From NCBI GenBank assembly GCA_026125795.1, contig JAHCKM010000001.1, positions 310,001 to 374,000 of the forward strand: a DNA stretch of 64,000 nt, given 5' to 3'. The translations under genes were made by a program, and so were the position numbers. This DNA comes from Burkholderiaceae bacterium (lineage in GTDB: Bacteria; Pseudomonadota; Gammaproteobacteria; Burkholderiales; Burkholderiaceae_C). Positions 25,491 to 27,634 of this stretch are shown here, one piece after another. A model generated the notes under the pieces. It had not been told where the DNA came from. It did no database searches and saw only the letters and a program-made list of their open reading frames with translations. The stretch's first letter is position 1; every line of letters begins with the position of its first letter.

Positions 25491-26417
25491 TCAAGCGGCG
25501 GCGGTTTCGAGCGCCTTGCGCATCTTCTTCAGCGCGGCCACCTCGATCTGGCGCACGCGTTCGGCGCTGACGCCGTACTCGGCCGCCAGTTCGTGCAGCG
25601 TCATGCCGCCGCTGCTGTCGTCGTTCACCGCCAGCCAGCGCTGCTCGACGATGCGACGGCTGCGCGCATCGAGCGTGTCGAGCGCCGTGCCGATGCCTTG
25701 CGCCATCAGCCGGTCACGCCGGCGCGCCTCCAGCACCTGCGTCGGCTCGCCGCTGTCGTCGGCCAGGTAGGCGATCGGGGCGAACGACTCTTCGTTGTCG
25801 TCGACCTGGGGATCGAGCGCCATGTCGCCGCCGGACAGACGGGTCTCCATCTCGACCACTTCTTCCGGCTTCACGTTGAGCTGGCTGGCGACCTGATCGA
25901 CCTCCGACGGGCTCAGCGTGTTGCGGTGGGTGTCGCCGTCGGCGGCCTCGCTCTTGAGGCTCTGCTTCATTGAGCGCAGGTTGAAGAACAGCTTGCGTTG
26001 CGCCTTCGTCGTGGCCACCTTGACCAGGCGCCAGTTGCGCAGGATGTACTCGTGGATCTCGGCCTTGATCCAGTGCAGCGCATAGCTGACCAGGCGCACG
26101 CCCTGGTCAGGGTCGAAGCGCTTCACCGCCTTCATCAGGCCGACGTTGCCTTCCTGGATCAGATCGCCCTGCGGCAAACCATAGCCGAGGTACTGGCGCG
26201 ACACGGACACCACCAGCCGCAGGTGCGACAGCACCAGTCGACCGGCGGCCTGCACGTCACCCTGGTTGCGCCACTGGCGCGCCAGGTTCGATTCGTCCTC
26301 AGCCGTCAACATCGGCAGGCGATTGACCGCCGAGATATAGGCGTCGAGGTTCCCCAGCGAGGGCATCACGGCCCAAGGGTCACGCAGTGCGAGAGCGGAT
26401 GAGGCGGATTGAGTCAT
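25491..26417 (-). CDS. rpoH: RNA polymerase sigma factor RpoH (sigma-32, heat shock)
   Basis: A 308-residue sigma factor directing RNA polymerase to heat-shock promoters. The RpoH box QRKLFFNLR (in ATTKAQRKLFFNLRSMKQ) separates it from RpoD and RpoS. Region 2 is VVSVSRQYLGYGLPQGDLIQ and FDPDQGVRLVSYALHWIKAEI; region 4.2 is EYGVSAERVRQIEVAALKK. The start MTQSASSALALRDPW at 26417 fits family length (about 285-310). Expression is probably controlled by HrcA through the CIRCE element in its promoter, besides the usual control of sigma-32 stability. Confidence 0.97.
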   Translation of the reverse strand: MTQSASSALALRDPWAVMPSLGNLDAYISAVNRLPMLTAEDESNLARQWRNQGDVQAAGRLVLSHLRLVVSVSRQYLGYGLPQGDLIQEGNVGLMKAVKRFDPDQGVRLVSYALHWIKAEIHEYILRNWRLVKVATTKAQRKLFFNLRSMKQSLKSEAADGDTHRNTLSPSEVDQVASQLNVKPEEVVEMETRLSGGDMALDPQVDDNEESFAPIAYLADDSGEPTQVLEARRRDRLMAQGIGTALDTLDARSRRIVEQRWLAVNDDSSGGMTLHELAAEYGVSAERVRQIEVAALKKMRKALETAAA

Positions 26418-26455
26418 GTGCCTTCTGAACGGAGCCGGTCGGATTGGTTCCCGGG

Positions 26456-26485
26456 ATATTAGCACTCAAGGCGCACGAGTGCTAA
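26456..26485 (-). promoter_or_regulatory. rpoH promoter overlapping CIRCE
   Basis: On the minus strand TTAGCA (26485-26480) and TAATAT (26461-26456) are separated by 18 bp and lie about 40 bp before the rpoH ATG. The -35 hexamer is the left arm of the CIRCE repeat; the -10 shares its right-arm bases TAA. A bound repressor would block both elements. Confidence 0.55.
26459..26485. promoter_or_regulatory. CIRCE operator (HrcA binding site) upstream of rpoH
   Basis: TTAGCACTC (26459-26467), nine bases, then GAGTGCTAA (26477-26485): a perfect match to the consensus CIRCE arms and spacing recognised by the heat-shock repressor HrcA. It lies 42 bp upstream of rpoH. No groESL, dnaK or hrcA gene is in the window, so rpoH is the target here. 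A chance 18-base match with exact spacing is very unlikely. Confidence 0.93.
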
Positions 26486-26539
26486 GACGGCTACGTCACA
26501 CCGATACTCAGACAAGCAATATGCGAGCGCATACTCACA

Positions 26540-27634
26540 TCAGACGTTGAACAGGAAGTTCATCACGTCGCCGTCGCGCACGACGTATTCCTTGCCTTCC
26601 GAGCGCATCTTGCCGGCCTCCTTGGCCGCCTGCTCGCCGCCGTGCGCGACGAAGTCGTCGTAGGCGATGGTCTGTGCCCGGATGAAGCCGCGCTCGAAGT
26701 CGGTGTGGATCACGCCGGCCGCTTGCGGCGCGGTGTCGCCGATGTGGATGGTCCAGGCGCGCACTTCCTTCTCGCCGGCCGTGAAGTAGGTCTGCAGGCC
26801 CAGCAACTTGAAGGCAGCTCGGATGAGGCGGTTCAAGCCCGGTTCGTCCTGCCCCATTTCGGCCAGGAAGAGCTTTCGATCCGCCTCGTCCATTTCGGCC
26901 AGCTCGGCCTCGGTCTTGGCGCAGATCGCCACCACGGGCGCGCCGTCGCGTGCCGCATGTTCGCGCAGCCGGTCGAGCAGCGGGTTGTTCTGGAATCCAT
27001 CCTCGGCGACGTTGGCCACGTACATCGCCGGCTTGGCGGTGATCAGGCACAGCGGCCTGAGTACCACCCACTCCTCCTTGCTGAAACTGAGGGCGCGCAC
27101 GGGCTTGCCTTCATTGAGCGCGGCCAGGCAGCGGTTGAGCACGTCGACCAGCCGCTGTGCTTCCTTGTCCCCGCCGGCCTTGGCCAGCTTGCTGTTGCGC
27201 TGCAGGCTCTTTTCCACCGTCGACAGGTCGGCCAGGCACAGCTCGGTCTGGATCACCTCGATGTCGGACACCGGATCGACCTTGCCGGCCACGTGGATCA
27301 CGTTGCCGTCCTCGAAGCAGCGCACCACGTTGACGACCGCGTCGGTCTCGCGGATGTGCGACAGGAACTGGTTGCCCAAGCCCTCGCCCTTGCTGGCGCC
27401 GGCCACCAGCCCCGCGATGTCGACGAACTCGACGATGGCCGGCACCACGCGCTCGGGCTTGACGATGGCCGCCAGCTTGGCGAGCCGCGCGTCGGGCAGC
27501 TCCACCACCCCCACGTTGGGCTCGATGGTGCAGAACGGGTAGTTCTCGGCGGCGATGCCGGCCTTGGTCAACGCGTTGAACAGGGTCGACTTGCCGACGT
27601 TGGGCAGGCCCACGATGCCGCACTTCAGGCTCAT
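26540..27634 (-). CDS. ychF: Redox-regulated ATPase YchF (OBG-family P-loop protein)
   Basis: A 364-residue cytosolic protein of the Obg-HflX group. The P-loop is [21 protein letters not shown] (start at residue 6), followed by [20 protein letters not shown] (G3 region) and a C-terminal TGS domain ending VMNFLFNV. YchF binds ATP rather than GTP, interacts with ribosomes and catalase, and responds to oxidative stress. Length is the usual 363-365. rpoH lies downstream on the same strand but has its own promoter. Confidence 0.97.

Follow-up and report, generated by a model that had tools for sequence, protein, structure and literature searches.

The rpoH upstream region

In the window, i.e. the whole stretch of 64,000 nucleotides that was analysed, the gene of the heat-shock sigma factor sigma-32, rpoH, lies on the minus strand at 25491..26417 (308 aa), and it is identified by the NCBIfam model TIGR02392 with 396.8 bits (cut-off 323.1). 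A second rpoH was considered and rejected, as the next best match in the genome (C3:875876) has RpoS as its top model, with 366.6 bits just below the cut-off of 378.7. The upstream gene ychF (26540..27634; TIGR00092, 505.7 bits) is encoded on the same strand, 122 bp away from rpoH. A terminator-like hairpin, detected by pattern scan only, is found on this strand behind ychF and before rpoH (26521..26540); the scan gave two such sites in 400 bp, as compared to a shuffle mean of 0.3. By eye, similar short hairpins are seen between ychF and rpoH in some relatives of the genus.

Between the two genes lies the palindrome TTAGCACTC-N9-GAGTGCTAA (26459..26485, minus strand), which is the HrcA operator CIRCE with 18 of 18 arm bases and 0 mismatches. 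A perfect CIRCE upstream of rpoH had been claimed in an earlier sequence-only reading of this DNA, and this is borne out. The range given there, 26456-26485, comprises the operator plus a TAT that completes a -10 element (see below), and the location of the operator stands, but the distance of 42 bp to rpoH has to be corrected to 41 nt, measured from CIRCE to the ATG at 26417-26415. A GTG in the right arm of CIRCE was rejected as an alternative rpoH start: in a relative (L052) the same frame runs into a stop before the ATG (by eye), and the ATG at 26417 was therefore kept.

No other CIRCE with up to 3 mismatches occurs in the window, where 100 shuffles gave a mean of 0.01, and the whole genome of 6.57 Mb contains two such places, the one at rpoH with 0 mismatches and one at groESL with 1 mismatch. 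The check for hrcA and for further CIRCE sites that the sequence-only reading had proposed was thus positive on both counts, since hrcA is present at C5:236874 (PF01628, 218.7 bits; TIGR00331, 303.1 bits with a cut-off of 197.2). Neither of the two CIRCE places (up to 3 mismatches) is located at hrcA itself. Further CIRCE-like sites look like chance and were dismissed, as a search with the 14 inner bases of the arms, in which 3 mismatches were allowed, gave 167 matches versus 139 in a reversed control. The genome also encodes RpoE, the sigma-E factor (C1:393937; TIGR02939, 265.3 bits with a cut-off of 236.15).

Conservation of the operator and co-occurrence with hrcA

The operator at rpoH is not peculiar to the genome of the window. 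When rpoH loci were drawn by rank and 350 bp of upstream region were searched where present, CIRCE with up to 3 mismatches was found at 6/6 loci of the genus, 58/58 of the family, 48/56 of the order and 16/25 of the class, and it was rare outside the class (4/27 in the phylum draw). Sites with 4 mismatches add two loci in the order and one in the phylum draw. These counts leave out two family entries (L045, contig end; G008, no full rpoH match), three order genomes (G070, G094, G109) and one class genome (G141) with no match, and, in the phylum draw, G172 (no locus retrieved) and genomes counted under other ranks; one order genome contributes two rpoH loci, and the family count includes G113 from the order draw. 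Among the named loci, the best 80 among the matches listed, upstream DNA was available for 78, and each of these carries CIRCE with up to 2 mismatches; they include Rubrivivax, Aquincola, Variovorax, Comamonas, Burkholderia, Paraburkholderia, Cupriavidus, Herbaspirillum and Janthinobacterium. The remark in the sequence-only reading that some betaproteobacteria have HrcA sites at rpoH is therefore correct for all 78 named loci listed and for all family loci whose upstream DNA was long enough, and the comparison of rpoH upstream regions across relatives that it had recommended reveals the operator in most of them.

It could be argued that the palindrome has no function and matches CIRCE by chance or as a relic. 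We regard this as practically negligible. The chance expectation is 0.01 per window, none of the 172 upstream regions had fewer than 5 mismatches when each was shuffled once, and the operator is conserved across the family.

The presence of the operator follows the presence of the repressor gene. In 80 genomes of order and class, with one rpoH locus per genome and CIRCE accepted with up to 4 mismatches, 62 have both CIRCE and hrcA, 3 CIRCE only, 2 hrcA only and 13 neither (Fisher p 1.7e-10, uncorrected for descent). Corrected for descent on the supported branches of the RpoH tree, the count is 3.7 to 0 of 5 independent pairs with a median p of 0.125, which falls short of significance because 5 pairs are too few. 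These p-values were therefore not taken as proof, the one being uncorrected and the other being unable to reach significance. The three genomes with CIRCE and no hrcA match have completeness values of 84%, 62% and 97%. One genome (G098, locus L230), in which rpoE is present and hrcA gave no match, is a natural test of which element stays without HrcA: its CIRCE has decayed to 5 mismatches, and an overlapping GGAACTT-N16-TCATA is intact.

A predicted promoter overlapping the operator

On the rpoH strand, the left arm of CIRCE supplies the -35-like hexamer TTAGCA (26485-26480), which is followed after 18 nt by TAATAT (26461-26456), with a TG preceding the TAATAT. These hexamers and their spacing had been pointed out in the sequence-only reading and are present as described. 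TTAGCA is weak and inseparable from the operator, as the hexamer is fixed by CIRCE in any case, and a generic sigma-70 scan of 26300-26700 returned no promoter-like site because TTAGCA is a poor -35. The support for a putative sigma-70 promoter is comparative and comes from the other end of the operator, where the right arm plus TAT form the extended -10 element TGCTAATAT (26456..26464, minus strand). The three bases nAT after the right arm, which complete TGC-TAAnAT, are kept at 6/6 rpoH sites of the genus, 56/58 of the family, 42/50 of the order and 11/16 of the class, and at 0/5 of the phylum draw. At groESL, where the operator comes after a TTGAA...TATAAT/TTAT-type promoter, the completion is found at only 2 of 30 family sites (30 being the loci retrieved out of 57 genomes with a match), as compared to 62 of the 64 rpoH sites of genus and family (p 2.7e-19). 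A completion that is specific to rpoH, together with a groESL promoter that lies ahead of its CIRCE, suggests that CIRCE forms part of the promoter at rpoH, in line with the sequence-only reading.

Two observations on the operator sites may be added. In the phylum draw, three loci of one family outside the class (L214, L215, L217; f84) have an rpoH-type gene whose CIRCE shows 1 mismatch and is not followed by the -10 completion. In L035, L033 and similar family loci, the N9 spacer begins with G at 25 of the 30 groESL sites, unlike at rpoH, so that CIRCE spacers vary with the gene and are not free sequence. An RNA thermometer was also considered and rejected, as shuffled sequences fold equally well as the 230 nt that follow the presumed sigma-70 start (z -0.19).

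If CIRCE were real but of minor importance, most rpoH mRNA would have to come from ychF read-through or from an unrecognised promoter. The position of ychF 122 bp upstream on the same strand would permit the former and the negative generic scan the latter, but the terminator-like hairpin behind ychF speaks against read-through, and a minor role of the operator is difficult to reconcile with selection on a -10 completion that is specific to rpoH sites and with the loss of the operator where hrcA was lost. We consider this explanation very unlikely. Control of rpoH by HrcA through promoter overlap, the central proposal of the sequence-only reading, is instead well supported at the sequence level by the presence of hrcA, by the CIRCE that tracks it and by the rpoH-specific -10, but the proposal was incomplete, as it overlooked a third element.

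Putative sigma-E promoters in shifting registers

This third element, found in many rpoH regions, resembles a sigma-E promoter (GGAAC, 16-17 nt, TCNNA) and keeps fixed registers with respect to CIRCE, which differ between lineages. Sigma-E promoters have a GGAAC-type -35 and a TC..A-type -10 at a distance of 16-17 nt, and the coupled elements at rpoH fit this consensus (RpoE, ECF02) and may be regarded as putative promoters. NGAAC[T/C] starts 9-18 nt before CIRCE at 74 of 130 CIRCE-bearing rpoH loci from genus to class and at 0 of 30 groESL sites, and it is followed by TCNNA in 65 of the 74 (at 16 nt in 54, at 17 nt in 11). When the -35 offsets were permuted among loci (2000 permutations), 29.9 loci on average and 43 at most showed the coupling, versus the observed 65.

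Two registers dominate, and the -10 shifts together with the -35. Of the 38 loci that have the -35 at -16/-17, 35 have a TCNNA that begins at CIRCE base 8 and none has one at base 12. For the 24 loci with a -35 at -12 the reverse is true, as TCNNA begins at base 12 in 23 of them and in none at base 8. Since the CIRCE arm supplies the TC in the first register, only the A is independent there, and this A is present at 39/45 rpoH loci with the -35 at -14 to -17, as compared to 9/30 groESL sites. In a further arrangement, seen at 15 loci mostly of Burkholderia-type genera, the -35 is placed 28-33 nt ahead of CIRCE, and no more than about 6 nt then separate the end of the -10 from the operator.

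A scoring matrix, trained on 65 of the loci, some of which were later scored, was applied to 200 bp and is passed by 3% of shuffles. Among the 80 genomes already used for hrcA, 52 have both the motif and rpoE, 2 the motif only, 12 rpoE only and 14 neither (p 5e-7); corrected for descent, the count is 2.6 to 0.1 of 5 pairs with a median p of 0.25, so that power is lacking here as well. The arrangement shifts frequently on the RpoH tree, with 52 changes over 223 rows, and 97 of 208 CIRCE-bearing loci fall into none of three named registers; in 220 bp, a motif is present at 37 of these (3.6% in shuffles) and absent from the other 60. At the one locus of a Bordetella-titled MAG, no sigma-E motif was found.

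Both threaded registers are absent from the six members of the window's genus, where a similar pair of elements lies downstream of CIRCE. In the window these are GGAACCA (26451-26445) and, after N16, TCAGA (26428-26424), on the minus strand, the latter ending 6 nt before the ATG. All six members have GGAAC 6-7 nt after CIRCE and TC..A at a spacing of 16-17, and their -10 stops 6-8 nt short of the ATG. Within the genus, the mean identity of pairs amounts to 0.97 for the CIRCE arms, 0.82 for nAT, 0.91 for the -35 and 1.00 for TC..A, as compared to 0.25-0.40 for the stretches between, and the window's own motif scores above 200 of 200 shuffles in the matrix (p 0.04 for the weakest of the six). 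Downstream GAAC occurs in 17 loci in total, with TCNNA at 15-17 nt in 12 (genus 6/6, family 6/10, order 0/1). Of the six family loci, L048, L076, L078 and L095 weigh less, because by eye their TCNNA could also be read as codons that follow an alternative start. Among the matches listed, the named loci with this register are Aquincola, two Rubrivivax and one Burkholderiales MAG. Given the usual start distance of sigma-E promoters, the downstream promoter, if it is used, would yield a transcript whose 5' end lies at the rpoH start codon or a few bases from it.

It has to be considered whether HrcA governs one sigma-70 promoter at rpoH and nothing more, with GGAACCA-N16-TCAGA not being a working promoter in the genus. 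A -10 that leaves almost no leader raises this doubt for the downstream register, and the sigma-E motif is missing from many CIRCE-bearing rpoH loci, i.e. the above 60 of 97. However, a non-working element should hardly leave a footprint in 6/6 genus members in which the bases between the elements have diverged, at a constant spacing of 16-17 and in the presence of rpoE, and coupled elements are found at rpoH of many relatives. We therefore regard a lone sigma-70 promoter as rather unlikely.

Proposed mechanism

The probable mechanism, in our view, is that HrcA represses rpoH by covering a sigma-70 extended -10 promoter, and that sigma-E provides a second input that responds to envelope stress. 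The proposal builds on what the DNA contains, i.e. the operator, the rpoH-specific -10 completion, hrcA, rpoE, and sigma-E-type elements with their conservation and register; from these we infer HrcA binding, the start sites, the use of the elements by sigma-E and the strength of gating. In other bacteria, HrcA activity depends on GroE, and titration of GroE relieves the repression by HrcA. In unstressed cells, HrcA on CIRCE would thus exclude polymerase from the sigma-70 promoter of rpoH. On heat, misfolded protein would fill GroE, HrcA would be released, rpoH would be transcribed, and sigma-32 would raise the chaperone levels. As groESL has its own CIRCE plus a sigma-32-like promoter, HrcA would act on GroE directly and via sigma-32. 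The sigma-E-type promoter would supply the envelope-stress input to rpoH. In many relatives this promoter threads CIRCE or ends just before it, and HrcA should therefore gate the sigma-E input there, while this gating should be weaker in the window's genus, where the core lies just downstream of CIRCE.

A wider reading would see rpoH of beta- and many gammaproteobacteria as a composite node. An HrcA operator, the extended -10 of a sigma-70 promoter and a sigma-E promoter would occupy shared or adjoining bases there, with the sigma-E promoter in at least four fixed registers: its -10 lies just before the operator, across the left arm and the spacer, or within the N9 spacer, or the whole promoter is located downstream. 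The folding state of the cytoplasm, sensed by HrcA and GroE, would then gate the envelope signal of sigma-E in many lineages, and in the window's genus and some of its kin the sigma-E promoter would have moved out, resulting in a (nearly) leaderless mRNA and a nearly independent input. We hold this reading only tentatively, at somewhat less than an even chance, because about half of the CIRCE-bearing loci are outside the named registers. If it is true, envelope-stress control meets both classical heat-shock systems on one short DNA stretch in a large bacterial group. This raises the questions of whether HrcA gates sigma-E at rpoH and whether a promoter outside the operator changes an AND-like into an OR-like logic, for which the differing registers and the hrcA-less G098 are natural comparisons.

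Comparison with known systems

The closest comparison is groESL of the same genome and family, which has the same operator and presumably the same repressor as rpoH. The difference is positional, as the groESL CIRCE follows its promoter and should cover the start site, whereas the rpoH CIRCE would be part of the promoter. In E. coli, the P3 promoter of rpoH is a sigma-E promoter. Together with fam of Bordetella bronchiseptica, it exemplifies a sigma-E input into rpoH as proposed here. The fam (rpoH) promoter region is transcribed in vitro by SigE (PMC3490749), and the available text of that study contains neither HrcA nor CIRCE (0 occurrences). E. coli, used as control in our profile search, gave no HrcA match and differs in this respect from the window's genome; the heat-shock control of the bacteria analysed here is usually read through E. 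coli.

Permina and Gelfand (2003) reportedly treated the sigma-32 and HrcA regulation of betaproteobacteria, and their study may already include CIRCE sites at rpoH of this group. Their work is cited in PMC545781, a study of Geobacter sulfurreducens whose Table 8 gives a predicted CIRCE at rpoH at position -51. Operator consensus and gene are the same as in the window and the distance to the start codon is similar, but Geobacter is a deltaproteobacterium, and the available text describes no sigma-E element or promoter overlap (PMC545781). No CIRCE at rpoH is mentioned in the accessible parts of PMC2194791, PMC12617022, PMC3135505, PMC5911999, PMC3224663 and PMC11764788, and among the papers listed in our literature search none describes a CIRCE/sigma-E composite at this gene. 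CIRCE at rpoH is thus of a kind already known, as judged from the available text on Geobacter sulfurreducens (PMC545781), and what seems to be new is its spread, together with an interlocked sigma-E-type promoter that occurs in differing registers.
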